DNA of 64,000 bases from an uncultured Bacteroidales bacterium (lineage in GTDB: Bacteria; Bacteroidota; Bacteroidia; Bacteroidales; Bacteroidaceae). Location of the stretch: the NCBI GenBank assembly GCA_902802815.1, contig CADCNQ010000003.1, forward strand, positions 124,001 through 188,000, read 5' to 3'. A program made the position numbers and the translations under genes. Positions 487 through 52,118 of the stretch are shown here, piece after piece; the first letter of the stretch is position 1; the number at the start of each line of letters is the position of its first letter. Below the pieces are notes generated by a model, which saw only the letters and a program-made list of their open reading frames with translations, had not been told where the DNA came from and did no database searches.

Positions 487-915
487 TTACAATGTTACAA
501 TAAACGGTTCTTTGAAAACCTTCTGGTATTCTACCGGAGGCATTATTAACCCATCAAGTGGGGTGTTTTGTGTTTTCAAATACATTACCCCTCTTATGGC
601 GCCGTGCCCAAATGATGCGCATTGGGCAAGAAATGATGGAGGTATTACAATTTTATCTTTAGATGATAGCTGTGCAATTGATTCCGGATGAATTTCGACA
701 TAGGTGCAAAATTGCATTGTCAGAATAGTGGTATCACCCTGCAAAAATATTATATCGTTAACACATTTCAGGATGCGCTCTTCTCGGTTGAGGGCGAAGT
801 CAATATTATTTTTAATACTTACCTCTTTTCCACCGATATAATTTTCCCATGCAGGCTTAAATTCGGTAAGTTCAAATCCTGCTAGTTTGTAAGCTATCGA
901 TGTTTCTTTGCTCAT
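487..915 (-). CDS. SecB-like chaperone of a TAC module
   Basis: This 142-residue protein has the shape of a SecB-family chaperone: alternating beta segments, then IPPSFLAQCASFGHGAIRG and a C-terminal proline motif (MPPVEYQ). These match the region in SecB around its conserved helix and LPPINF-like end. It starts 9 nt after the antitoxin stop. In TAC systems the SecB-like protein binds the unstable C-terminal tail of the antitoxin and so permits toxin neutralisation. The gene order toxin-antitoxin-chaperone supports that role rather than general protein export. Similarity was judged by eye, so the fold call is moderately strong. Confidence 0.75.
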   Translation of the reverse strand: MSKETSIAYKLAGFELTEFKPAWENYIGGKEVSIKNNIDFALNREERILKCVNDIIFLQGDTTILTMQFCTYVEIHPESIAQLSSKDKIVIPPSFLAQCASFGHGAIRGVMYLKTQNTPLDGLIMPPVEYQKVFKEPFIVTL

Positions 916-924
916 GATCTCATC

Positions 925-1341
925 TTAATAATTTACACACTTTGAATACCCGGTCGCCTTGGACATATCAATCGAATAGCACTTGTTATCAGAATAGGGG
1001 AGAGAAATAATATTTGATTTTTGAGTAGCTTGCATCACAAAAGAATATTTATGTACTCCAGTGTCAAGCAGTCTTACCCCTAGGGCTTTCTCAATTGATG
1101 TCAATGTATCAACAGTGAAATTCCTGTCACCTGAGAGCCAGTCGGAAATCTCGGACTCCGTTTTGCCCATCGTTTGAGCGAATTGCTTTTGGGTCAGGCC
1201 TTTTCCCGCCATTGCATCTGAGATTTTTATGGCAAGGAGCATCCTGTTACGGGTTTTTGCAACGCTTTCTTCATCGATGTTGGCAAGCATTGCCGCTAAA
1301 ACACCTGTTGCCTTTCTCTTTTCCACTTGTTTCATGATCAT
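925..1341 (-). CDS. HigA-type XRE antitoxin with C-terminal extension
   Basis: This 138-residue protein has a clear XRE helix-turn-helix at about residues 49-75 (LTQKQFAQTMGKTESEIS). A 44-residue tail follows (about 95-138), rich in Tyr, Ser and hydrophobic residues (for example NKCYSIDMSKATGYSK). Ordinary HigA proteins lack such a tail. In chaperone-controlled systems a comparable extension, called ChAD, is aggregation-prone and is bound by the SecB-like partner. The start codon overlaps the toxin stop by 4 nt (ATGA), indicating translational coupling. The HTH is likely to repress the module promoter. Confidence 0.8.
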   Translation of the reverse strand: MIMKQVEKRKATGVLAAMLANIDEESVAKTRNRMLLAIKISDAMAGKGLTQKQFAQTMGKTESEISDWLSGDRNFTVDTLTSIEKALGVRLLDTGVHKYSFVMQATQKSNIISLPYSDNKCYSIDMSKATGYSKCVNY

Positions 1342-1802
1342 AGTTCTCTTATGGTTCCGTCTTGTCCTATTTTCAATTCTCTGTTTTTTATTCTTCGATA
1401 TATTTCTTTTGCAATATCCTTCATCTGTTGGGCTTTCTCAAAGAGAGGTGGATAATCTTGATATGCTCTAACTTGTGGTGGTTTATATCCGCCGGAACCT
1501 AAAATAATAAGTGTATCATTGAAATATATTCCATATAATCTAAGTGTTCCTGTATGGTTAATAGCCACCATACCGTCCTCCAAATCACCTTCACCTTCTT
1601 TGAATAGGCTTCTTTTACATCCTATTTCATGAGCCATTACATATAGTTTTTGAAGGATCTTATTTAAAGCTTTTGTGTATGACTGGTTTTCCTCAAAGAA
1701 TTGTTCAAGAAGAGTGTTTGTATCACCATCCAAAATAACAGAATATATGCGAGCCATGTCGCCCGACAAAGATTCCTGTTCTTTTATCTTAAAGTCTCTC
1801 AT
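1338..1802 (-). CDS. HigB/RelE-like toxin of the TAC module
   Basis: This 154-residue protein has a C-terminal core (about residues 82-110, GTLRLYGIYFNDTLIILGSG) typical of HigB/Gp49-type RelE-superfamily toxins, which are ribosome-dependent mRNA endonucleases. A conserved arginine precedes the central strand. The N-terminal 60 residues are longer than in minimal HigB. The toxin is encoded first, ahead of the antitoxin, as in HigBA. It is the first gene behind a -7 box at 1820-1827. Target and activity are inferred from the family. Confidence 0.75.
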   Translation of the reverse strand: MRDFKIKEQESLSGDMARIYSVILDGDTNTLLEQFFEENQSYTKALNKILQKLYVMAHEIGCKRSLFKEGEGDLEDGMVAINHTGTLRLYGIYFNDTLIILGSGGYKPPQVRAYQDYPPLFEKAQQMKDIAKEIYRRIKNRELKIGQDGTIREL

Positions 1803-19923: not shown

Positions 19924-21039
19924 TTACTGTGCGTTCAGATTGGTGAGGTTGAGGTTCACCATCTTGTTCGGAGCGGCGATCTGCGGAACCCACTCGGCAG
20001 TGTATTCCATGTAGCGGCCGTTCTTGTCGCGGTAGTTGCTGATGAGCATCTGACCGTTGTCGTTGCCGACGGGACGATAGGTGCGGCCCTCTACGGGATC
20101 GGTGGCCTCGAACGGAGTGTGGTGACGCATCCAACCAATCTTCTCGTCCGTTGCGGAGCGCAGGAACGTGATGCGGTCATCGGCATACACCTGGGTGTTC
20201 GTGCCGTTCTGCTCTTCCACGAAGTCGTCCTTGATCTCGACAGCGGGCAGACCAACGCCAACGAGGGCATTGGAGGCCATCTGCGAGGTGATGAGACCGG
20301 TGTAGAGGTTGAAGCGCTGCTCGGGCAGAACCATCTTGAAGGTATCACCGAACTCTACGGAGCCCACGATGTCCTTGATGAAGGTCTGGCGGCTCATGAT
20401 CATCTTCTCGAACTTGCCGAACTGCGACTGGAGAGCGGCGAGTCTGCGCTGCAGCCACGTGATGAAGTAGAGCTTGCCGTCCTGAGTCACCTCTGCCTTG
20501 GTGGGCGTGATGAAGTGGAAGGGCAGGGAGATGTCGAGCAGGTCGATACCTTCGGCATTGTCCTTGTTCTTCACGGTGGCCTTGCCGGTCATCAGCAGAG
20601 AGCCGACAACGAGATCCATACGCTTGTGGGGAGCGAGGATAACCTGACGATAATCGTCGGTGATGAAGTCGATGATGTCGTTCATGGCAGCCACCTGATC
20701 TGCAGTCTTGGCCTCGTTGAACTTGTCAATGAGATCCTGCAGCTCCGACAGGCGCTCCACATCCATCTGGTAGGCATCGCCCAGGTAGGCGATTTCGCCG
20801 TAGCCGCTTCCCATCGACTTACGCTCACGGATGGGCTTCTCGCCGTAGCGGGCGTTGATGGAGCCTGCTACCACACCGGTAACGGTGCCGAGATAGTCCT
20901 TGAATACGCGGGTCGTAGTACGACGGAAGGTCAGGTACTGCTGCCAATAGATTTTGTCGAGTCCCCTCTGGAATACGCGGTCAATGGTGGCCTGCACCAC
21001 GTTGGCATCGTTGAATAATGTCTGGATTGTAAGTAACAT
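19924..21039 (-). CDS. Major capsid protein (phage capsid E type)
   Basis: This 371-residue protein opens with LFNDANVVQATIDRVFQRGL. The middle contains YGEKPIRERKSMGSGYGEIA, LGDAYQMDVERLSELQDLID and GSLLMTGKATVKNKD. Such segments and the length fit the capsid-E branch of HK97-fold major capsid proteins. It follows scaffold and capsid-associated genes. No N-terminal delta domain or protease is evident; the separate scaffold protein fills that role. Confidence 0.85.
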   Translation of the reverse strand: MLLTIQTLFNDANVVQATIDRVFQRGLDKIYWQQYLTFRRTTTRVFKDYLGTVTGVVAGSINARYGEKPIRERKSMGSGYGEIAYLGDAYQMDVERLSELQDLIDKFNEAKTADQVAAMNDIIDFITDDYRQVILAPHKRMDLVVGSLLMTGKATVKNKDNAEGIDLLDISLPFHFITPTKAEVTQDGKLYFITWLQRRLAALQSQFGKFEKMIMSRQTFIKDIVGSVEFGDTFKMVLPEQRFNLYTGLITSQMASNALVGVGLPAVEIKDDFVEEQNGTNTQVYADDRITFLRSATDEKIGWMRHHTPFEATDPVEGRTYRPVGNDNGQMLISNYRDKNGRYMEYTAEWVPQIAAPNKMVNLNLTNLNAQ

Positions 21040-21061
21040 GATTCTTCGTTTTTAGGGGTTA

Positions 21062-21856
21062 TTACTCAAACTGGAAGCGAGAGGTCAGCGTCTCCTTATC
21101 CTTCTCGGAGATGGGGAGAACGAGCTTGGCTTCCTGTACCTCGTAGGCCTGCATGATGAGGGCAGCGAGTACAGCGCCGGCTTCCACCTTCGTCTCTTCG
21201 TAGATCACGAAGTTTGCGGTACGAGCGGGCACGCTCTTCTGCGTCTCCGTAAAGGGAGTGTTGGCAGCGACATCCTCGGCCAGAGGCTCGGAGAAAGTCA
21301 GCACGTCCTTTGTCGCGTTTGAGGTGTCAACGGCAGTCACGGTGTAGGTGTTTTCACCGATGACAATGCTCATGCCGGCGCTCACGCCGCTGTTCTTTGC
21401 GACGTCGAGAGTGGTGGCATCCTTCACTCCGGCCTTGGTCTTGCCGGTAGCAAGGGCAACGGCCTCAAAGAGAACCTGCCCTGCGGTTACGTTCTCCCCG
21501 AGCTCCGACACGGTCAGGGTGTCGTAGTTGGCGTTGGTGGTGTTGATGGCCGACACCTTAACGCAGGTAGAGCCTGCGCCCAGAGTCATACCAACCGCAA
21601 CGAGGGAGTTCTTTGCGATCTTGATGCTCGTGGCCCCGGCGCTAGCGTCCTCCGTCAGGCGAACATTCTTCACGACGTCGAGCATTCGGGTCTGAAGGTT
21701 TGCGCGGACGGGAGTGAAGCGGGGGAGCTTCGAACCAATGACCAACCCCTCAGTATTGAGACGGTACGGACCTCTCTTGTGATGGAGGGTCTGCACATCG
21801 CAAATCTCTTCTACTACTGCTGCGGGGTTAAGATTGTAGTTGAATCCTGCTGGCAT
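21062..21856 (-). CDS. Capsid-associated protein (putative head fibre/decoration)
   Basis: This 264-residue protein starts MPAGFNYNLNPAAVVEEICD and contains two tandem beta modules of about 65 residues. The first begins ASAGATSIKIAKNS and the second DATTLDVAKNSGVSAG; both go on to a VSAINTTNANYDTLTV / VTAVDTSNATKDVLTF segment. The end (AGAVLAALIMQAYEVQEAKL) is helical. Position between scaffold and major capsid genes suggests a decoration or head-fibre protein. The exact role is inferred. Confidence 0.6.
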   Translation of the reverse strand: MPAGFNYNLNPAAVVEEICDVQTLHHKRGPYRLNTEGLVIGSKLPRFTPVRANLQTRMLDVVKNVRLTEDASAGATSIKIAKNSLVAVGMTLGAGSTCVKVSAINTTNANYDTLTVSELGENVTAGQVLFEAVALATGKTKAGVKDATTLDVAKNSGVSAGMSIVIGENTYTVTAVDTSNATKDVLTFSEPLAEDVAANTPFTETQKSVPARTANFVIYEETKVEAGAVLAALIMQAYEVQEAKLVLPISEKDKETLTSRFQFE

Positions 21857-21893
21857 TGTTGTAAATTTTTAAGGGTTAATGAATTGTTTCTCA

Positions 21894-22571
21894 TCATGCA
21901 GTCTTCGTGGCGCCCTCTTTGATGATGGCTGCGATGGTCTCACCATCGCTTTTGATGCCACTGCCGGCAGAGGGAGGTACGGAAGGCTGAAATCCGAGGT
22001 TGGCGAGTGTTTGGGCTTTGTCCTTCATGAAGGAGTCCAAATCCGTCACATTGCCAGGCACGTTGAGCATTCTGGCCAACTCTTCGTTGATGCCGTGAGC
22101 TTTAGCCTTTTCGAGAATCTGTGCAGTCCGCTCCTCTTGAGTGCGCCGCTCTTCCTCGGTCTTCATCCTGTCCGTGAAGGGTTTCATCTTCTCGTCCAGC
22201 AATTTTGAGAGCTTTGCATCGAGTTCGTCCTGCTGGGAGGGCTGCTGCTGTTTCCCGTCTTCGCCGATGTGATACTTCTCTTTGAACTGCTTTTCAAAGT
22301 CACCCTTGAGGCTCGATTTGAGGCTGTCGGTGAGACTTTGAGTAAGAGCGTTCTTCTGATTAGTGAAACGTGAGTCGAAGAGGCCCTGCATCTTCTTAAT
22401 TGCGTCCGCTTGCGCGTCCACAATCGCGGTCACGTTTTCGTCAGTCACCAGGCCGGTGGAAAAAAGACATGCGGCCAACCCTTGAATCTCGTTGTCGCTC
22501 AATCCGCTTTGAGGATATTTCGTCTTGAGCGCAGTGCATAATGCTTGAATGTCCATAGTTTTACTGTTCAC
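21894..22571 (-). CDS. Capsid scaffold protein
   Basis: This 225-residue protein is rich in Lys, Glu, Gln and Asp with long predicted coiled coil (DELDAKLSKLLDEKMKPFTD, RRTQEERTAQILEKAKAHGI). It has a Gly/Ser linker and a short basic C-terminus, typical of siphovirus scaffolds. It is the first gene after the late promoter at 22588-22595. An alternative start six codons downstream (MDIQALC) is possible. Confidence 0.75.
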   Translation of the reverse strand: MNSKTMDIQALCTALKTKYPQSGLSDNEIQGLAACLFSTGLVTDENVTAIVDAQADAIKKMQGLFDSRFTNQKNALTQSLTDSLKSSLKGDFEKQFKEKYHIGEDGKQQQPSQQDELDAKLSKLLDEKMKPFTDRMKTEEERRTQEERTAQILEKAKAHGINEELARMLNVPGNVTDLDSFMKDKAQTLANLGFQPSVPPSAGSGIKSDGETIAAIIKEGATKTA

Positions 22572-22587
22572 TTTATGTTAAGCACTG

Positions 22588-22660
22588 CAAAAGTATTCAT
22601 TCAAGAGTACATTATGAAGAGATTTGCGCCCAATGCTTTTACCTATCCGAAATAGGTAAA
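22588..22660 (-). promoter_or_regulatory. Late promoter of the capsid/tail operon with upstream activator-like inverted repeat
   Basis: Minus-strand -7 box TACTTTTG (plus 22588-22595) lies 17 nt upstream of the scaffold start, with no good -33 TTTG. Exactly 42 nt upstream of the box is a 23-bp inverted repeat (22638-22660), TTTACCTAT-5nt-ATAGGTAAA. The same repeat occurs at the same distance from the -7 box at 32276-32283. This geometry suggests activator-dependent late transcription. Confidence 0.7.
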
Positions 22661-22676
22661 AAGAATAAAGAAAACA

Positions 22677-22700
22677 GCCCGGCAATCACTTGCGGGGCTG
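22677..22700 (-). terminator. Rho-independent terminator of the amidoligase cassette
   Basis: Read on the minus strand, AGCCC-c-GCAA-gtga-TTGC-c-GGGCT is followed by GTTTTC. It lies 27 nt beyond the stop of the glutamine amidotransferase-like gene and separates it from the late promoter. Confidence 0.75.
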
Positions 22701-22727
22701 CTCAAAACAATAAGTCAAACTGATAGA

Positions 22728-23261
22728 TCAAAAGTGTATATTAGGCTTTTTCATGAGGTATGCAAACCTTAGATTTGAGAAGTAGTAATTGCCTACCTTC
22801 TCGAAGTGTCCGAAGAGTCGCACATCGTCACCCTGCATAAAGGCAAACTTTGAGCCCTCGATGATGTTCTGCACCATCTTCTCTGCTTCGCGAGAATACA
22901 GGCCGTAGCGTTCGATATTCGGGTACAGGTAACGGATAAATGCCGTTTCGCTGTCTGTCTTGTCGCCGATGGGGCGCACGCTTAATATGCCGTTGTGGGC
23001 AAAGTAAACATCGTCTATCTTGAACGGGTGGCAGTTGGCGCGCTTTACGCTGCCGTGTGTTGCCAGGCGAAAGTGCATGATGCACGGCTCATCTTTTCTG
23101 CGGCTCCGTAGGCGCTCTTCAAAATATCCGAAACTCAAACCTTTGCAAAACAGGGTGGGGGTGCAAAATCCCTGCCCGTGAGGGTTGGCCCGATGCATGG
23201 CGCTCAAAACATCGTGCGAGGGCGTCTCTACGCCTGCGGGTATATAGCAAATGACACACAT
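22728..23261 (-). CDS. Class II glutamine amidotransferase-like protein
   Basis: This 177-residue protein starts MCVICYIPAG; Cys2 would become the N-terminal nucleophile after Met removal. Further hallmarks are NPHGQGF, MHFRLATHG and VYFAHNGIL, the glutaminase signature of the Ntn-hydrolase amidotransferase fold. Only the glutaminase domain is present, so ammonia must be delivered to a partner. The amidoligase 33 nt upstream in the same transcript is the obvious candidate. It forms a two-gene unit with its own promoter (24235-24242) and terminator (22677-22700). Confidence 0.85.
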   Translation of the reverse strand: MCVICYIPAGVETPSHDVLSAMHRANPHGQGFCTPTLFCKGLSFGYFEERLRSRRKDEPCIMHFRLATHGSVKRANCHPFKIDDVYFAHNGILSVRPIGDKTDSETAFIRYLYPNIERYGLYSREAEKMVQNIIEGSKFAFMQGDDVRLFGHFEKVGNYYFSNLRFAYLMKKPNIHF

Positions 23262-23294
23262 AACTTTTTTCTTTTTTTGATGCCGGTGCGGCCC

Positions 23295-24185
23295 TTAGTT
23301 AAGGGCTGCACGGCGGTTGATGAAATATACTTTTTCGCTCTCTTTCAAGAAAGGTATCTCTTCGATGGTATTGCAGGTGTCACACTCATGTTTGTATGAG
23401 TATTCGACCAATTTTGCAAGAAACATCACCCAGTTGGAAATCTTCTCATATTCGGTCGTACCGCTATGCTGACGAAACTCGATGGTCTTGTGTCTGCTAT
23501 AAGCCACGGCGTTGACCTTGAAATATCTGTCATCGTTCATTGCCATCATGATGTCGCCCTTAGTTCTGCAGCCCTCAAAATTTATACCCTGCAAGCTGCG
23601 GCACCAACGGCTATTATTGCCACGGCGAGAAGCCGGCATGAAAGTATCAATGGCGTTCTCGATCTTTTGATAGTTGCGCACCAGTCTGCAGTAGTGCTCA
23701 TCGCTCATCTTCTCTGCACCGATGTGAACGTGCAAGCCGCATGAACGATTTACCTTTGCATCTACACATGCAAGAGCGGCCGTAATCTTCTCTAAGCTGC
23801 TCAGTCCCTTTTTACCTTTGAGAATGGGGCTGACAACCTCGTTAGTGTTTTCGCCGACGAGAGAACTATCTGACACAATCTTATAGTAGTGCTCGTTATC
23901 TTCGTGGTTGTAACCCTCAGAGCGTACTCGCAGACCCGATGCTGCGGCCTCTTCGATGAGCTGAATGCGGCTTACGTTGTAGCACTCAATCTCAACGCCG
24001 AACGTGAGCTTTGCAAAATTAAACTCGCTGCCGCTGTACGTCTTGCCCTTTGCGCTGCCGGCAAGCATAATTCTAACCTCATGCTCACACAGGCCGAGCT
24101 TAATCAACTCGTTGCGCTTTGCAACAATACCGCACTCTTTGTTGAGAACTTCGTTTACCTGTTCTGAAAGACTCTTTGTACTCAT
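23295..24185 (-). CDS. Amidoligase (glutamine synthetase-like fold)
   Basis: This 296-residue protein carries the motifs of the phage/prophage amidoligase family (COOH-NH2 ligase with a glutamine synthetase-like core). FGVEIECYN provides metal-binding Glu residues. SDSSLVGENTNEVVSPIL contains the second acidic site. CGLHVHIG has the conserved histidines, and KTIEFRQHSGT closes the core. Such enzymes are predicted to make peptide or amide bonds on small molecules or proteins. Co-transcription with a class II amidotransferase is a known genomic theme of this family. The substrate is unknown. Confidence 0.85.
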   Translation of the reverse strand: MSTKSLSEQVNEVLNKECGIVAKRNELIKLGLCEHEVRIMLAGSAKGKTYSGSEFNFAKLTFGVEIECYNVSRIQLIEEAAASGLRVRSEGYNHEDNEHYYKIVSDSSLVGENTNEVVSPILKGKKGLSSLEKITAALACVDAKVNRSCGLHVHIGAEKMSDEHYCRLVRNYQKIENAIDTFMPASRRGNNSRWCRSLQGINFEGCRTKGDIMMAMNDDRYFKVNAVAYSRHKTIEFRQHSGTTEYEKISNWVMFLAKLVEYSYKHECDTCNTIEEIPFLKESEKVYFINRRAALN

Positions 24186-24234
24186 AACTTTTGATTTTTT
24201 AATGTTTGACTTATTGTTTTCTGTTTTCTGAGTG

Positions 24235-24282
24235 CAAAGGTATAAGTTTTATCTTATATTACAAAATATTTTATAAGATAAA
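24235..24282 (-). promoter_or_regulatory. Promoter and operator of the amidoligase cassette
   Basis: Minus-strand -7 box TACCTTTG (plus 24235-24242) lies 49 nt upstream of the amidoligase start. Immediately upstream, an 11-bp inverted repeat with arms TTTATCTTATA (24248-24258) and TATAAGATAAA (24272-24282) covers the -33 region, where a repressor could bind. The rest of the gap to 24435 is AT-rich, with further TATAAG/CTTATA words near 24405-24425, and holds no recognisable gene. Confidence 0.6.
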
Positions 24283-24435
24283 TTTAATAAATATGCTGAA
24301 AAACATAAAAATTGGGTATATTTTATATATTTTTGCAAAATATAAGTCGAATATTGTGCTTTTCTGTGTGCAAAGATGTGTCTTGCATGCTTGTGTCGGT
24401 GTAACTCATAAGTTATACCTTATATAAATAAAAAT

Positions 24436-24470
24436 AGTATTCGATAGTCTTCTCTTGACTACCAAATACT
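24436..24470 (-). terminator. Terminator downstream of the packaging operon and small peptide gene
   Basis: Minus strand AGTATTTGGTAGTC-7nt-GACTATCGAATACT forms a 6+5 bp stem with a small internal loop. It is followed by ATTTTTATTTATA. It lies 31 nt after the stop of the 25-residue peptide gene. Confidence 0.65.
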
Positions 24471-24501
24471 ATCATGCGCGAGAAATGAAGTGAGCAACCT
24501 C

Positions 24502-24594: not shown

Positions 24595-24626
24595 TTTGGT
24601 GGTTTCAAAAATTGTTTTTATATTTG
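24595..24626 (+). promoter_or_regulatory. Promoter of small RNA 1
   Basis: TTTG (24595-24598), a 20-nt spacer and TATATTTG (24619-24626) match the Bacteroidetes consensus TTTG-N19/20-TAnnTTTG. The upstream half TTTGGTGGTTTC is identical to that of the promoter at 30262-30293, with the same 20-nt spacing. Confidence 0.7.
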
Positions 24627-24700
24627 CATCACCAAAAGGACATTTTGGTCAGATGCGGGGGGTGTACCACGAAAGTGGAGCCTCCCGTTCCCTTTTTCTT
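24627..24700 (+). ncRNA. Small RNA 1, convergent with the MuF-toxin gene
   Basis: Transcription should start near 24630. The RNA has a 7-bp hairpin ACCAAAA-5nt-TTTTGGT. A longer stem follows, CGGGGGG ... CCTCCCG, enclosing a perfect CCAC-GAAA-GTGG hairpin. A T-rich tail (TTCCCTTTTTCTT) ends at the stop codon of the toxin gene (24699). No open frame of note is present. The sequence just after the promoter (GCATCACCA) recurs in small RNA 2. Confidence 0.6.
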
Positions 24701-26096
24701 AAAAGTCCATCTCATATACAATCTCACGGTCTTGGACGCATATTATTTTTTTGAACTTTACATATTGTCCATCATGGAGCTTTTCTAGCCCACGATACCG
24801 GTTTACTGCATTACTAAGCGTCTCTTGACTAAATCCTCCATTCGGGAAGTCAAGAATTGCAATTTCCGTGTTGCGTTTTTCTGCGCAATGTTTTAATCCT
24901 CTCAGGATATTGTTTGATGTGGCCGTTTCACGTCCGGCTACCTCAAACTTCATACCGTCCCATGTCCCTTCCGTGAATCGCTCACCTATCGTTGTGCTGT
25001 ATTCGTTACCAAGGATAACCACATGGCCTGCTTTATACCCGGCATCACGAACATGCTTCTCATACACACCGCCTTTCTTGTCGAAATTATGACCAGTGTG
25101 TTCGGCCTTTATTCCAAGTGTGTTTTCGTTAAACTCTACATTTCTATAGTTTGGATCATCAAGTAACCTGCGATACTCCCTCCATCGTTCACCTCTCAAG
25201 GCTATCCTCGATGTCAATTCTTGTGGAGGTGCGTTAAGAACTCCATCCACATACTTCGGATTATCCTTTATCCACCTCGGCAGCGTGCCGCGCTCTCGGG
25301 CCCTTTCGATTCTCTCCTTGTTGTCTTCAATCCACGTGTTGAAGTTCTCGGGCACCTCAGTGACCCTTTCACTCTCCCACGAGAAGATCGGTCTGGCGAA
25401 GCATCTGCACCAGGGATGCCAGCCGAAGAAATCAAAGTCCTTGGGGTAGATGCCTTGGAGGTCATCGCACATGTCGATTTTACGATGATTGTCTCCCAGC
25501 AGAACCTCGTAGCCTACCACAAAGGGGAGGGCGTTCCATATCCGCTTCTCTACGACACGGTACGCCGTGGCAATGTCGGAGACAACGAGCCGCCGGAGGT
25601 TACTGAAAAGGGCCTTCTGCGGTCTTACTGCAGACCCCTCGGAGTCTGCTACGATTGTGGCGGGCTTTTTCAGGTATTCGGCGAGCCTTGCCGCACGCTC
25701 CGCATTTGTCCCGGAGGGCAGGAGGCTGACAGCATCTTTCGTCTGTGCGGCGAAGCCCTTGAGGACGTCTCCCGCCGATGTCCTGTCCTCCCATGATCTG
25801 TATGACTGGAGTGAGGCCGCGCTCAAGGTTGCAATCAGGTCTGCATCTGGAGAGTAGTGTATCTTTTTCCGTGCCTCTTCCGACATGGCGTGTCCCATAT
25901 CGGAGGCCGTGACGCTGACCTGAGTCTCTCCGTCTTCTATCGAGGCCCCGACATCAGAGGCAAATTCGCCGGCAAGAGAATCGGCATCACCTCCGCTTAC
26001 GACCTGCATACAATAGGCTGAGAGGCGCTTATCCACGTCTCTCAGCTTCTTATTGATAACGGCCTTGGCCTGTTTGTCGTAAACGCCGGTATTCAT
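24699..26096 (-). CDS. MuF-type minor head protein fused to a C-terminal CdiA-C-like nuclease domain
   Basis: This 465-residue protein has two parts. Residues 1 to about 270 form the SPP1 gp7/MuF head-morphogenesis domain; the diagnostic motif is around YEVLLGDNHRKIDMCDDLQG followed by FGWHPWCRCFARP. From about residue 345 the chain changes to EKHVRDAGYKAGHVVILGNE, TWDGMKFEVAGRE, NNILRGLKHCAEKRNTEIAI. This resembles the C-terminal RNase domain of CdiA (BECR fold). MuF-toxin fusions are a known class of phage polymorphic toxins, possibly packaged in the virion and injected. No protein immunity gene follows; a small RNA gene and a 25-residue peptide do. It overlaps the portal stop by one base (TAATG). 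Confidence 0.8.
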   Translation of the reverse strand: MNTGVYDKQAKAVINKKLRDVDKRLSAYCMQVVSGGDADSLAGEFASDVGASIEDGETQVSVTASDMGHAMSEEARKKIHYSPDADLIATLSAASLQSYRSWEDRTSAGDVLKGFAAQTKDAVSLLPSGTNAERAARLAEYLKKPATIVADSEGSAVRPQKALFSNLRRLVVSDIATAYRVVEKRIWNALPFVVGYEVLLGDNHRKIDMCDDLQGIYPKDFDFFGWHPWCRCFARPIFSWESERVTEVPENFNTWIEDNKERIERARERGTLPRWIKDNPKYVDGVLNAPPQELTSRIALRGERWREYRRLLDDPNYRNVEFNENTLGIKAEHTGHNFDKKGGVYEKHVRDAGYKAGHVVILGNEYSTTIGERFTEGTWDGMKFEVAGRETATSNNILRGLKHCAEKRNTEIAILDFPNGGFSQETLSNAVNRYRGLEKLHDGQYVKFKKIICVQDREIVYEMDF

Positions 26097-27559
26097 TAAA
26101 ATGCGTTCTCTTCTTTAGCGATGTCCTGATCAATCTCATCCAGCTCTTCCTGGTATTCGTCGCAGATGCCCACAAGCATCACGCCCTGCTTACGCGACAT
26201 CACGTGACCGCTCACTCCCTTGGTGGCGTCTTCTATGCGCTTGGACAAATCTTCGATGCGGTAGGGGCGCTGCTCTACCTCAGCGTCTAAGGTCTCCGAT
26301 GCAGACTTCAGGGCCGGCACCAATGCCCCGACAGCATGGATGAGGAAGTTCAGTCTTCGCTGATAGAACTCTCCCATGTCCTCCCAGTGGCGTGCGGCAG
26401 CAAAGAGAGTGGCCATGAACATGAAGTCGAATGCCGTGCCCGAGGGCGGCTGTCCGGATCCTTTCACCTGATCGAAGGAGATAAGTGGGGTATTGGTGAG
26501 CGAGTAGCACCTTACAAGCAGGTTGTCGCACTGAGACTTCACCATGTCGCTGGTCTGATGCCAGTCGAGGTAATAAGCCTTACCGCCTCCCGTAATCTTG
26601 AGCAGATGAGACTTACCGATGTTCTCTGCACCGCCGTTTGCCAAATCGCCCTCCAGTATGAGCTTCGGGAAGAAATTCATCTTGATGGCATCCGACCAGT
26701 CGGAGGTGAGCGTTTCGAGACTCTCGCGTGCGCCGGTGATGTTGTGACACAACTCCTCCGGGCGATAAGCGTACATCGTGGGGTTCTTTTTAAAGCCGTG
26801 CTCGAAGGGGTAGCCCTTGGAGTTTGCCCAGTCTTCTTTGTCGATGTGCTGCACCTGATAGACGGAATCTTTGGTAACGAGCATGAAGCAATGGACGGTG
26901 CTGTTGTCCGATTTCTTGTATTCATATTCGCGGCCGATTCCAAGATAATCGTTACCGTCATCGGAGAATATGGGGTACAGCTTGTCGCCTCTGAAGGGAG
27001 ACCATATCTGCATGCGGAGTTTGTATTCAGGCTGAGTCTTGATACCAACAAAGGACGCGGCCTTATTCCACACCTTTCTCCAGAAGCCGCTGGCGTCGTA
27101 GCGATACCAGTATTCACAGACCTCCTGCTCGGCAAGCCATGCCCGAAGCTCGCGCTTGTTTTGGAACTTCAGCTTGTTGTCCTTGGAGACTTTCTTAATT
27201 ACATTAAGCAAGGTTTTTTCCTCTTTGTATTCCGTCTCCGCTTTGATGGCCGGTTCGTTGCCGATGGTAAAGGCCACATGAATGTTCACGATGTCCTGCT
27301 CGATGGGCAGAGCGATGCGTGCCACCTCTTCCTCTTCATATTCTGCAGGATGCTCCACGCCATGTGTATCGTAGTATGAATCCTTTTTCAGCGTCTTCAT
27401 ATTCTTACGGAATTGCTTGTCGTGGATCCTGTGTTTGTCGGTGTACCAGTTTTTCGACAACCGCTCCACGTTGGGCATCGGTGTCCGGCGGGAATTTTTG
27501 ATCACTTTGATTCTTTCGTCCCATGTCGGGAGTTCTAAGATTTCTTCGATGCTATTCAT
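26096..27559 (-). CDS. Portal protein (SPP1 gp6-like)
   Basis: This 487-residue protein carries the portal signatures IEQDIVNIHVAFTIGNEPAI, a clip/wing region (QIWSPFRGDKLYPIFSDDGN), and the stem motif TNTPLISFDQVKGSGQPPSG with a following helical crown. It lies between large terminase and the MuF protein, as in SPP1. The dodecameric portal is the DNA entry channel of the capsid. Confidence 0.95.
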   Translation of the reverse strand: MNSIEEILELPTWDERIKVIKNSRRTPMPNVERLSKNWYTDKHRIHDKQFRKNMKTLKKDSYYDTHGVEHPAEYEEEEVARIALPIEQDIVNIHVAFTIGNEPAIKAETEYKEEKTLLNVIKKVSKDNKLKFQNKRELRAWLAEQEVCEYWYRYDASGFWRKVWNKAASFVGIKTQPEYKLRMQIWSPFRGDKLYPIFSDDGNDYLGIGREYEYKKSDNSTVHCFMLVTKDSVYQVQHIDKEDWANSKGYPFEHGFKKNPTMYAYRPEELCHNITGARESLETLTSDWSDAIKMNFFPKLILEGDLANGGAENIGKSHLLKITGGGKAYYLDWHQTSDMVKSQCDNLLVRCYSLTNTPLISFDQVKGSGQPPSGTAFDFMFMATLFAAARHWEDMGEFYQRRLNFLIHAVGALVPALKSASETLDAEVEQRPYRIEDLSKRIEDATKGVSGHVMSRKQGVMLVGICDEYQEELDEIDQDIAKEENAF

Positions 27560-30261: not shown

Positions 30262-30293
30262 TTTGGTGGTTTCGAATTGTTTTCTTACTTTTG
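30262..30293 (+). promoter_or_regulatory. Promoter of small RNA 2
   Basis: TTTG (30262-30265), a 20-nt spacer and TACTTTTG (30286-30293) fit the Bacteroidetes consensus. The stretch TTTGGTGGTTTC is identical to that in the promoter of small RNA 1. Confidence 0.7.
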
Positions 30294-30298
30294 CAGCA

Positions 30299-30408
30299 TC
30301 ACCAGAGAATGGTGTGGGGCTTGTGCGGTAGCAGTTGCAGCATATTCGCATCGGCGGTATCCCTTCACAAGGCAAAGGCGTCCGGTATGCAGGCAACGCC
30401 TTTTTTTT
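30299..30408 (+). ncRNA. Small RNA 2, convergent with the BECR-like toxin gene
   Basis: About 110 nt, transcribed opposite to the operon. It starts with CACCA-gagaa-TGGTG and contains a long-range stem GCTTGTG ... CACAAGGC around a structured middle. It ends with an intrinsic terminator AAAGGCGT ... ACGCCTTT plus eight T at 30401-30408. The terminator touches the stop codon of the toxin-like gene (30407). No credible peptide is encoded. The strong terminator and consensus promoter make an independent transcript likely. Confidence 0.7.
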
Positions 30409-31015
30409 ATTTTATGTTCCATCTGTAGATTGATCTGGTTGTTTCGTTCACGTGAAGATAAAGAAGTGGACGTGCTTTTGTCTCCCCGTCTCTCACTTGT
30501 CTTTTGTATTCCGTGACACCATCACGAATGTGAAACCTATTGTATTGACTTCCTTTGGGTGCAATTGAAATAGCGACATCTGATTGAATCGTTTTTCTTT
30601 CGTCAGGTTTGAATTTTTTTCGACTGTGTTTAATTGCTTCCGCTACAGTTCTAGGATCCGGCTTACCGCTTAACTTGTATATCTCATGCGTAAACCCTTC
30701 AACACGTCCATCCGATGATGGTAAGGTAAGCGTCCTATCGTTTATTTTTATTTTGGCATTTCCTTCTCTGTCAAGTGTAAAGGCAAAACCGTTTTCTGCA
30801 AATATCCGGCCCACTTCTGTCTCGTGAGCATGATGTTGCCCAATCTTAGCAAAATAGGCTCCGTTTTTATGTAGGTTGCGCTCCACAGTATATCCCTCAC
30901 GTTCCAGTTTATCAGCTTCGGCCTGGTTACGTGCAATTCTCCTTGCACTGGCCACACCATTAGCCGAAACCTGACGGCTCGATTCAACTCCATAGATATA
31001 AACACCTTCACCCAT
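30407..31015 (-). CDS. BECR/CdiA-C-like toxin domain protein
   Basis: This protein has 202 residues from the ATG at 31015, which overlaps the upstream gene by 8 nt; longer in-frame extension would be a shadow of that gene. The C-terminal half has the layout of CdiA-C/BECR nucleases: a helix (TEVGRIFAENGFAFTLDREG), then PSSDGRVEGFTHEIYKL, then a helix AEAIKHSRKKF and strand SDVAISIAP. The N-terminal part is Arg/Ala/Glu-rich. It is probably a toxin or an accessory nuclease; the match is weaker than for the MuF fusion. Confidence 0.55.
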   Translation of the reverse strand: MGEGVYIYGVESSRQVSANGVASARRIARNQAEADKLEREGYTVERNLHKNGAYFAKIGQHHAHETEVGRIFAENGFAFTLDREGNAKIKINDRTLTLPSSDGRVEGFTHEIYKLSGKPDPRTVAEAIKHSRKKFKPDERKTIQSDVAISIAPKGSQYNRFHIRDGVTEYKRQVRDGETKARPLLYLHVNETTRSIYRWNIK

Positions 31016-31688
31016 TGTTCTGCTTTTGGTCATATTCCCACAATATCCTTTCGGACAGAGGGAAGGTTTTGTAAATCTTCTGCAGATCCTGCGGAAAGTT
31101 CTCGCGCAGCCAAAGAAAGCAATCGAGGTTGAATCCTGTGCCGCTCGAAGCCTTGAGAGAATATCGGACTGGCTCCGGAATGGCGTTCTGCCGCATGTAG
31201 GCCAGCACATCCTTCTGAGTCCAGTCTGCGAGAGGGTAGGCCTGCTGGTTGTAGATGTAATCGTCACCCTCCAAGCGTTTCAGCATCAGGCGCCGGTTCA
31301 TACTGTCGGCTTTCTTCATGCCAAGGAGCACGTAATCAATGCCCGTTTTCATGCGAACGGCCTTTATCACGTCGGCGAGCTTTATGAGCTGCACATTTGG
31401 CTCCGGCACACAATAGAGACCACCTCGAAGGATGTAAGACAGATTCCAATGAGGCACCTGCATAAACTCCACATTCGGGTAGCGGCTCTTGCACCAGTTG
31501 ACCCACCGCTCGATATGTTCAAGACCGGGGACAAAGTACATAAACACGCAGACAATCCTCTGAAACTTCCCGTAAACGAGATCCAGCGTCACAAGAGAGT
31601 CCTTCCCGAGACTACAAAAGACGATACAGCCATCAGAATTTCTCCTAACGGCTGCAATCGTCTTCGTAGCGGATTCCATCTTCGTCAT
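31008..31688 (-). CDS. PP-loop (PAPS reductase family) protein 1
   Basis: This 226-residue protein has the ATP-pyrophosphatase loop FCSLGKDSLVTLDL (residues 24-37, SLGKDS instead of SGGKDS). Later motifs are DYVLLGMKKADSMNRRLMLK and YPLADWTQKDVLAYMRQN, the PAPS-reductase-type C-terminal region. Phage members of this family may act in sulfur transfer or nucleotide modification. The true substrate is unknown. It is part of the packaging operon. Confidence 0.8.
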   Translation of the reverse strand: MTKMESATKTIAAVRRNSDGCIVFCSLGKDSLVTLDLVYGKFQRIVCVFMYFVPGLEHIERWVNWCKSRYPNVEFMQVPHWNLSYILRGGLYCVPEPNVQLIKLADVIKAVRMKTGIDYVLLGMKKADSMNRRLMLKRLEGDDYIYNQQAYPLADWTQKDVLAYMRQNAIPEPVRYSLKASSGTGFNLDCFLWLRENFPQDLQKIYKTFPLSERILWEYDQKQNNG

Positions 31689-32275: not shown

Positions 32276-32348
32276 CAAAGATAGCGCATTATCTTTGCTC
32301 AAAAGCAAAGCTTTAAGCCTATCCTTTTACCTATCGAAAATAGGTAAA
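32276..32348 (-). promoter_or_regulatory. Late promoter of the packaging operon with upstream activator-like inverted repeat
   Basis: Minus-strand -7 box TATCTTTG (plus 32276-32283) lies within a small palindrome GCAAAGATA-gcgcat-TATCTTTGC. The inverted repeat TTTACCTAT-5nt-ATAGGTAAA (32326-32348) lies exactly 42 nt upstream of the box, as in the capsid operon promoter at 22588-22660. A second CAAAGC/GCTTTG dyad lies between them. Confidence 0.7.
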
Positions 32349-32510: not shown

Positions 32511-32771
32511 ATGGACATAAGAGCAGTTATCAAAAGGCAGGGTTGGACTCTTGAGCGTCTGGCCGAAGAAATGTACAATTCGAAGACCGGCGCAAAGGGT
32601 GTCTCTCAGGCATCTGTCTCGCAGATCCTGAATGGTAATCCGACGCTTGATAAGCTGAAAGAGATTGCGTCGATAATCGGCGTTTCTGTTTCAGAGTTGG
32701 TCGGCGATGGTGACAGGACAATGATCAGGTGTCCGAAATGTGGTGAATTGATAAAGATTGAAGTAAAATGA
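32511..32771 (+). CDS. XRE-family regulator with C-terminal zinc knuckle
   Basis: This 86-residue protein has an HTH at about residues 13-58 (TLERLAEEMYNSK, then VSQASVSQILNGNPTLDKLK). It ends in RCPKCGELIKIEVK, half of a zinc ribbon. It is one of the few + strand genes in the prophage middle. It overlaps the following ASCH gene by 4 nt (ATGA). Such a pair resembles a toxin-antitoxin operon, with the regulator as antitoxin, or a regulatory accessory unit. Confidence 0.8.
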   Translation: MDIRAVIKRQGWTLERLAEEMYNSKTGAKGVSQASVSQILNGNPTLDKLKEIASIIGVSVSELVGDGDRTMIRCPKCGELIKIEVK

Positions 32772-39041: not shown

Positions 39042-39926
39042 TTATTCGCAAAGTCCGTGATAGATGCTCATACAGGAATAGCCCTCTTCAGGCTCGAAGA
39101 GGTCAAGCTGTGCGTCGTCTCGGCTGACGTAGGCGATGACATCTTCAAAGGCTGGGATGCCGCCGCCGTGCTTCGTGCAGTATCGATCGGGTATCTTGCC
39201 CTTCGGGAAGAACGACGAGGGTGTCTTGTCGCCCTCTTTCAGGCTGTTCACTTCATCTTCCAGCCGAATGAGCCGCTGCACATATTCCTCGTCCTTCCGC
39301 ATGGCTTTCACTTCTGACAGCCGCGAGTAGATGCAAGGATAACAGCCCACGCGACTGGCGCCGCGTCGGTAGAGCGGATTGGGTTGCTGGCCGTTGTCGA
39401 TGATGAAGTCGATGATGTCCTGTGCGCTCATTCCGAGCATGGGCCGCTCCACCGTCGCCTTGTGGTGCTGGCACCATTGGCGCACGTCGGTCTTGCGGTA
39501 GAGCCTTTTCTTATCGTCGGTGAAGTATTCCGCGAAGTAGTCTGCCGAACATGGCAGTTTGCTGCGCGATGCACTCTCGGCTGCCCTGATGCCCTGTATG
39601 ATAATGAGGTCGTCGTCTTGCTCCAGTATGTAGTCTATCATCGGCTGAATCTTCAGTTGCACCGTACACATGCGGTGCTGGGTGTCGGGGAACCATCGCA
39701 TTCGCTTGCACAGCCCGATGAAGCCGTCCACGCTCTTGTTGCGCAGAACCTCCAACGGCACGCCTAACTGCTTAGTCACGTCGTTGATGTGCACGTAGGT
39801 CAGTTCGTGCTCCCAGCCTGTGTCGCAGAATACGGCTGTCACCTTGTCGGCTCCGAACTCCTTGCAAGCCTGAATGAGACACGCCTGCGAATCCTTTCCT
39901 CCTGAAAATGATACAATGATTTTCAT
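39042..39926 (-). CDS. PP-loop (PAPS reductase family) protein 2
   Basis: This 294-residue protein has the canonical loop SGGKDS at residues 8-13, then FCDTGWEHELTYVHI and MCTVQLKIQPM. IIIQGIRAAESASRSKLP completes the PAPS reductase-like core. A later GCYPCIYSRLSEVKAMR may hold metal or a cluster. Phage enzymes of this group are suspected in DNA phosphorothioation-like or queuosine-like chemistry, but no dnd genes are near. Substrate unknown. Confidence 0.85.
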   Translation of the reverse strand: MKIIVSFSGGKDSQACLIQACKEFGADKVTAVFCDTGWEHELTYVHINDVTKQLGVPLEVLRNKSVDGFIGLCKRMRWFPDTQHRMCTVQLKIQPMIDYILEQDDDLIIIQGIRAAESASRSKLPCSADYFAEYFTDDKKRLYRKTDVRQWCQHHKATVERPMLGMSAQDIIDFIIDNGQQPNPLYRRGASRVGCYPCIYSRLSEVKAMRKDEEYVQRLIRLEDEVNSLKEGDKTPSSFFPKGKIPDRYCTKHGGGIPAFEDVIAYVSRDDAQLDLFEPEEGYSCMSIYHGLCE

Positions 39927-50996: not shown

Positions 50997-51698
50997 ATGA
51001 AAAAAGAGCGTTTAAGAGAGGCTATTGAGTACTTGCGGACAAAAGGCAAAGTGCATACTCAAAAAGAGGTCGCAGCTATAATGGGTGCGACTGCACCTCA
51101 CGTGTCCGGCGCGCTCGCTGGCGACGAACGCCTTCTCACCGACAAGTTTCTCAAACGCTTCAATGCCGCTTTCGATGGCGTCTTTAATATAAAGTGGCTT
51201 CTCACCGGCGAGGGAAGTATGTTAGCTGCTGCCCCGGAGTTGGTCGCCAGTCAGCCCGAAGCGGGCGGGCAGTCAGCCCGAAGCGGACAGGGTGTCGGCC
51301 TGCCGCTGGTGCCCATCAATGCGGTGGCCGGTCTGCCGACAGACTCGTTGGCCGGCATTCGGCTGGAAGACTGTGAGCGTTATGTCGTGCCGGAGTTCTC
51401 GCGACTGGGCGCGCAGTATCTCGTGCGGGTGGCCGGAGCAAGTATGCAGCCGCGTTACTATAACGGTGATCTGCTGGCCATACGGCGCCTCACGACGGCC
51501 TCTTTCATTGAGTGGGGCAAGGTCTATGTGCTCGACACGGAGCAGGGGATGTTGGTGAAGAAGCTGATGCCCTGCGCGGAAGATGACGCCTGTGTGCTCT
51601 GCGTGAGTGAAAACGCGACGGAGTTCCCGCCGTTCCGCATCCCGAAGACGGAGATTCGCAGCCTCTCCATCGTGCTCGGCCATGTCAGCGTAGAGTGA
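50997..51698 (+). CDS. Phage repressor, LexA/CI type with S24 protease domain
   Basis: This 233-residue protein has an N-terminal HTH at about residues 20-45 (TQKEVAAIMGATAPHVSGAL), a linker, a possible Ala-Gly cleavage site in NAVAG, and the S24 protease motif GASMQPRYYNGD (catalytic Ser). A Lys in GMLVKKLMP follows. It should maintain lysogeny by binding the divergent control region and self-cleave upon RecA activation. Divergent orientation to the early operon supports this. Confidence 0.9.
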   Translation: MKKERLREAIEYLRTKGKVHTQKEVAAIMGATAPHVSGALAGDERLLTDKFLKRFNAAFDGVFNIKWLLTGEGSMLAAAPELVASQPEAGGQSARSGQGVGLPLVPINAVAGLPTDSLAGIRLEDCERYVVPEFSRLGAQYLVRVAGASMQPRYYNGDLLAIRRLTTASFIEWGKVYVLDTEQGMLVKKLMPCAEDDACVLCVSENATEFPPFRIPKTEIRSLSIVLGHVSVE

Positions 51699-52066: not shown

Positions 52067-52113
52067 TTAGATTGTGGTTCTGAATGTCGTGGGTTCGAGT
52101 CCCACTAGACACC
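52067..52113 (+). other. Right prophage attachment site: displaced 3' half of tRNA-His
   Basis: The segment reads as the 3' half of tRNA-His: anticodon stem TTAGA-TTGTGGT-TCTGA with GTG anticodon; variable ATGTC; T arm GTGGG-TTCGAGT-CCCAC; acceptor strand TAGACAC and discriminator C (specific to tRNA-His). The 5' half (expected acceptor GTGTCTA) is absent. Phages that integrate at tRNA 3' ends restore the gene on one side and leave such a fragment on the other, so this marks attR; attL should lie left of the window. Confidence 0.85.
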
Positions 52114-52118
52114 CTGAG

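Follow-up and report, generated by a model that had tools for sequence, protein, structure and literature searches.

What does a temperate phage gain from an amidoligase gene and a glutaminase gene lodged among the genes for its head, and are these genes expressed with their neighbors or separately? Both questions are raised by a locus in an uncultured Bacteroidales bacterium with a genome of 2.46 Mb. The window, the whole stretch of DNA that we analyzed, comprises 64,000 nt (positions 124,001-188,000 of the forward strand of contig CADCNQ010000003.1, assembly GCA_902802815.1). The coordinates of the principal features are in Table 1.

Table 1. Features of the cassette and of the prophage that carries it (positions in the window).
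Feature	Position	Strand	Properties
Late-operon palindrome, copy 1, upstream of scaffold/capsid operon	22638..22660	.	TTTACCTATCCGAAATAGGTAAA
Terminator hairpin closing the cassette, after the glutaminase gene	22660..22704	-	-20.1 kcal/mol, z = -4.5, U-rich tail
Class II (Ntn) glutamine amidotransferase, short, stand-alone	22728..23261	-	177 aa; Pfam PF13230, E = 2.7e-8
Amidoligase_2, GS/GCS2-like fold	23295..24185	-	296 aa; Pfam PF12224, E = 5.9e-36
Bacteroidota-type promoter	24234..24265	-	TTTG-N19-TACCTTTGC; 3 strict matches in the window vs 0.16 expected
11-bp perfect dyad, candidate operator	24248..24282	.	TTTATCTTATA-N13-TATAAGATAAA; arms 24248-24258 and 24272-24282
Terminator hairpin at the end of the preceding head operon, before the cassette promoter	24428..24478	-	-20.4 kcal/mol, z = -6.7, then T-rich
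Late-operon palindrome, copy 2, upstream of packaging operon	32326..32348	.	TTTACCTATCGAAAATAGGTAAA
Cro/CI-type HTH protein	32511..32771	+	Pfam HTH_3, 1.3e-9; in many relatives its homologues are oriented divergently from the cassette
S24-type (CI/LexA-like) prophage repressor	50997..51698	+	Pfam PF00717, 1.7e-9
attR	52069..52115	+	47-bp repeat of the tRNA-His 3' end

Setting of the cassette in a tRNA-His prophage

The cassette is carried by a prophage of approximately 53 kb at tRNA-His. The copy of the tRNA-His 3' end at attL, 915 bases to the left of the start of the window, recurs at attR. A tyrosine integrase gene (L097:9143-10441) follows tRNA-His and host genes that, by inspection, are SRP54/Ffh- and FolD-like, and the region between the integrase and the S24-type repressor contains head, packaging, and tail genes. 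With both attachment sites, an integrase, a repressor, and these structural genes present, the prophage looks intact. An initial annotation had described the two genes as wedged between the packaging and capsid operons, and this arrangement was confirmed: portal and minor-head genes (24699-27559) lie on one side and scaffold and capsid genes (19924-22571) on the other.

Other parts of the prophage also had distinctive features. A small gene group by the integrase (487-1802, minus strand) encodes an HTH_3 protein and two partners that match the PADLOC candidate defense models PDC-M64B/C. There are two distinct PAPS-reductase-like proteins (39042-39926 and 31008-31688, both minus strand), the first of which matches SspD/DndC-type models. 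The N-terminal part of the minor-head protein (24699-26096, minus strand) matches head-morphogenesis families and the protein matches PHROG 16625, labelled Bxa ADP-ribosyl transferase; its C-terminal 170 residues have no Pfam match. This protein is absent from the syntenic locus L003, and in L134 it is replaced by a 632-aa open frame that is 33% identical. Two plus-strand promoters with a common TTTGGTGGTTTC...TTTGCA(G)CATCACC sequence lie in short intergenic gaps (24595-24695 and 30262-30410), each with a terminator-like hairpin approximately 60-110 nt further on, and mark candidate small phage RNAs. An Rfam search recovered tRNA only, with no match for either candidate, and the whole 30262-30410 RNA folded no better than shuffled sequences.

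The two enzymes and their predicted chemistry

We found strong family matches for both genes, as the initial annotation had proposed, and the PHROG assignments agree with those from Pfam. The amidoligase scored 125 bits against PF12224 (curated cut-off, 22), and the residues of its signatures (E65-x-E67, G150-LHVHIG, and T234-IEFRQH) were invariant in 33 relatives. The AF2 model (pLDDT 91.7) was compared to the PDB with Foldseek; the best match was YbdK (E = 2.8e-5), followed by GCS and GS, with modest TM-scores of 0.40-0.49. The GxExE, GLHVHxG, and TIEFR motifs occur in the identical order in GCS2 proteins, with hhalign itself aligning the HVH motif only. No solved PF12224 structure was found by sequence. 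In the glutaminase, C2 (directly after the initiator Met), H63/R65, HNG 89-91, and TDS 102-104 were invariant in 32 relatives, and its model (pLDDT 95.3) matched the glutaminase domains of GlmS/GFAT (E = 1e-6; TM 0.55-0.68 by query length) and also EgtC. The initial annotation would have been undermined by missing active-site residues; instead, the catalytic residues and signatures are present in both proteins, and the amidoligase model has a GS/GCS-like fold. Sequence and modeled fold thus support a putative glutaminase and a putative ATP-dependent ligase.

The pair is conserved as a unit. An alignment scan for the amidoligase yielded 79 loci, and at 41 of 66 distinct testable loci a glutaminase gene was located at most 3 kb away. 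These included nearly all close relatives, in which the glutaminase gene follows the amidoligase gene, the outcome of a neighborhood search that the initial annotation had suggested. In the window the two genes are separated by 33 nt. The strong family matches and the conserved pairing rule out chance or miscalled genes. Neither protein matched any PADLOC-DB model at E ≤ 0.01, and neither was placed in a known anti-phage defense system.

Amidoligase-glutaminase pairs have precedents in many phages. For phiEco32, modification of the envelope against superinfection was predicted (Iyer et al. 2009, as cited in PMC10580990 and PMC11318856). Pairs are also present in the OM43 phages MEP401/402 (PMC10580990), in the early module of the LUZ24-like phage UFV-P2 with an HNH gene between the two genes (PMC3890496), and, as comparable genes, in the lytic phage tf (PMC3517423); a role in nitrogen metabolism was proposed for Phage-ZRK32 (PMC10945688). 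The papers cited here on phiEco32, OM43, LUZ24-like phages, tf, and Phage-ZRK32 assign no substrate to any of these pairs, and the proposal that phage amidoligases modify the cell surface is a prediction from the literature. Because similar pairs occur in lytic phages (tf, LUZ24-like), their function is not specific to lysogens. The cassette resembles the pairs of phiEco32, OM43, tf, UFV-P2, and Ottawa in having both families together, with a proposed change to the host envelope or a metabolite. It differs from them in its short 177-aa glutaminase, in the direct adjacency of the genes, and in its isolation as a separate operon within a temperate phage of Bacteroidota.

More distant comparisons inform the chemistry. 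The MurT/GatD system for peptidoglycan amidation applies a similar logic, a ligase and a glutaminase acting on a carboxylate, but the likeness is one of working only: MurT/GatD (PMC3267633) has a Mur-ligase fold and a different class of glutaminase, and is not known to be homologous to the pair described here. EgtA/EgtC (ergothioneine synthesis) and YbdK combine a GCS2-fold ligase with an Ntn hydrolase and are structural matches, although the similarity is at the level of the fold (approximately 10-15% identity). Amidoligases in Bacillus phage 031MP004, Arthrobacter cluster AL phages, and C. clostridioforme prophages also have a partner that acts on gamma-glutamyl bonds, but that partner is GGCT/AIG2 and not a glutaminase.

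These relatives raise the possibility, which we regard as tentative, that the amidoligase couples gamma-glutamate to an amine, from which the Ntn hydrolase would cleave it, the pair making or detoxifying a small molecule. YbdK, EgtA, and other GCS2 relatives attach gamma-glutamate, EgtC trims in the ergothioneine pathway, and it is YbdK and the gamma-glutamylcysteine synthetases that give the best structural matches to the amidoligase, with EgtC among those to the glutaminase. The partner slot in the 66 loci held a glutaminase only (41), GGCT/AIG2 only (14), neither (11), or both (0). That more distant amidoligases pair with a gamma-glutamyl cyclotransferase rather than a glutaminase suggests gamma-glutamyl chemistry. 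However, the partner pattern tracks clades in loci that are not independent, and both partner types are reported in Phage-ZRK32 (PMC10945688). In addition, both sequence and fold place the glutaminase nearer to the glutaminase domain of GlmS/GFAT than to EgtC.

Promoter, dyad, and late-operon palindromes

The initial annotation had called a -7 box, an 11-bp dyad over the -33 region, and a terminator specific to the cassette, and we found all three. The promoter is a strict match to the Bacteroidota type and recurs among relatives: strict matches were present upstream of the amidoligase gene in 13 of 37 relatives with a glutaminase, compared to 7 of 366 control genes (p = 1.9e-10, calculated from related loci that are not independent). 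There were none upstream of the glutaminase gene in the same 37 relatives. A sigma-70 scan gave nothing useful, as expected for Bacteroidota. Hairpins bound the cassette on both sides, one closing it and a further one ending the preceding head operon.

The arms of the dyad are perfect, and the -33 TTTG (24262-24265) sits in its spacer. When the 130 nt upstream were shuffled by dinucleotide, a dyad at least as good arose in 5 of 400 sequences; the observed one is thus moderately unusual for the composition, and it occurs only once in the genome. The closest syntenic relatives (L002-L005) keep the promoter and have no comparable inverted repeat with arms up to 25 nt apart, and we therefore rejected the dyad as a conserved operator. 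We also judged control by the S24-type repressor through the dyad unlikely: the genome has no second copy of the dyad, and there was no half-site with at most one mismatch near 50.8-51.0 kb. Nor was any regulator tied to the dyad. Copies of a GGTATAACTTAT-like element are concentrated around the cassette promoter and next to the HTH gene; their AT content is too high for interpretation.

The flanking late operons have a different signature. A 23-bp palindrome with identical arms, TTTACCTATNNNAAATAGGTAAA, is found at exactly two places in the genome, both of them in late-operon upstream regions. In L003, a different dyad (TTCACnT..AnGTGAA) is found twice in 20.7 kb, at the equivalent positions (3926 and 11381); this pattern was written after viewing the sequence, so that an estimate of chance is optimistic and the evidence is the coincidence of place. 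The simplest reading is that these elements are a candidate operator shared by the late operons, changing with its regulator. The late palindrome is present at both flanking operons and absent at the cassette, in the window phage as in L003, which indicates that the cassette is probably outside the late regulon.

Separate regulation of the cassette, as originally proposed, is therefore well supported by a promoter kept in relatives, terminators on both sides, palindromes at the flanks only, and, in 14 of the 37 relatives, a neighboring divergent HTH gene upstream. We conclude that independent regulation is likely. Expression in the lysogen is plausible from the type of promoter. What is new here is mainly the pair of palindromes at the flanking late operons and the clean separation of the cassette from the late genes.

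Distribution of the cassette and its possible role

Two settings were common among relatives. One has the order portal, amidoligase, glutaminase, scaffold, and capsid, in some cases with a divergent HTH gene after the portal gene; the other has a divergent HTH gene followed by amidoligase, glutaminase, an ASCH-like gene, PAPS reductase, ParB, and terminase. The cassette is absent from most phages that share the head backbone, and 13 loci with the same backbone lack it between portal and scaffold. Among relatives by capsid gene, the scaffold gene directly follows the portal gene in L117 and L130, and the cassette is present there in L124, L131, and L133, indicating that the portal-scaffold interval is a cargo slot. 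The cassette also occupies other positions in other phages. It heads the packaging operon in several relatives and may be read with the late genes there. Porphyromonas phages have the amidoligase without the glutaminase.

Occurrence in hosts is sporadic. Matches were found in 5 of 295 genomes of the order (including the genome analyzed here), and a search of 60 other related genomes yielded no full-length homologue and one partial, weak match. Tyrosine integrases above the cut-off were present in 9 of the 26 phage records checked, 23 of which have the cassette. At L009:9998-10863 (a contig shared with L068) the amidoligase is split into two frames and the glutaminase is open, consistent with a decaying copy or a sequencing error.

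The neighbors in the second setting could point to nucleic-acid modification, with the cassette and the PAPS-reductase-like, ParB-like, and ASCH-like proteins hypermodifying or reading phage DNA. Approximately one third of the relatives have this gene order, and ParB-like genes follow closely in Arthrobacter phage Ottawa. It seems unlikely that this accounts for the cassette: PAPS reductase or ParB genes also occur in phages of the same backbone that lack it, of 23 cassette loci with wide flanks only 6 include either gene nearby, and in the window the two groups of genes are in separate operons. A non-exhaustive scan of the prophage recognized no gene set for thymidine hypermodification or deazaguanine.

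Position alone might suggest that the pair acts late, on the virion itself or during assembly (amidation of a capsid protein is one example), and sits with the head genes that it serves. The cassette directly precedes the scaffold and capsid genes at 10 of 23 loci, and the amidoligase of the Porphyromonas phages is also located after portal or adaptor genes. Nevertheless, phages of the same backbone assemble without it, it has its own promoter and no late palindrome, and elsewhere it is located away from head genes or in an early module. We consider a role in the virion improbable.

We favor a different reading, to which we assign a probability of roughly 0.6: that the cassette is a moron, an accessory amidoligase-glutaminase operon with its own host-type promoter, whose products carry out paired, glutamine-dependent amidation or gamma-glutamylation of a carboxylate target to the advantage of the carrier cell. 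The anatomy agrees with that of phage morons, in that the cassette has its own promoter and terminator between late operons and is absent from relatives of otherwise equal gene order. It differs from known morons in its Bacteroidota type of promoter, its two enzymes, and the late palindrome shared by the operons on either side. In this moron, the pair of genes that separates the packaging operon from the capsid operon would be transcribed as an operon from its own promoter, outside the late regulon, and the conserved adjacency of the genes suggests that the two products work as a pair. The substrate hydrolyzed by the Ntn-type glutaminase would be glutamine or else a gamma-glutamyl amide; the amidoligase, with its GS fold, would activate a carboxylate at the expense of ATP, and an amide would result. 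Overall, the two reactions would probably amidate or gamma-glutamylate a target with a carboxylate group in a glutamine-dependent manner, and a component of the cell envelope or a peptide is the most plausible target. The advantage to the carrier cell, for example altered phage adsorption, is the weakest step and is proposed with corresponding caution.

A broader combination of these ideas is that the cassette is a unit of lysogenic conversion, in which a novel change to the Bacteroidota envelope, of the gamma-glutamyl or amide type, keeps out superinfecting phages. Partners of the glutaminase and cyclotransferase types would then be interchangeable routes to a single chemistry, and the cargo slot would be insulated by late palindromes specific to each phage. 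We offer this combination as speculative and unlikely.

More than 15 years after phage amidoligases were first recognized in sequences, their substrate is still sought. The minimal, probably self-transcribed two-gene cassette described here, in an intact prophage and with natural sister phages that lack it, would be a good place to find that substrate. The paired late palindromes, in turn, provide a testable handle on the control of late genes in Bacteroidota phages.
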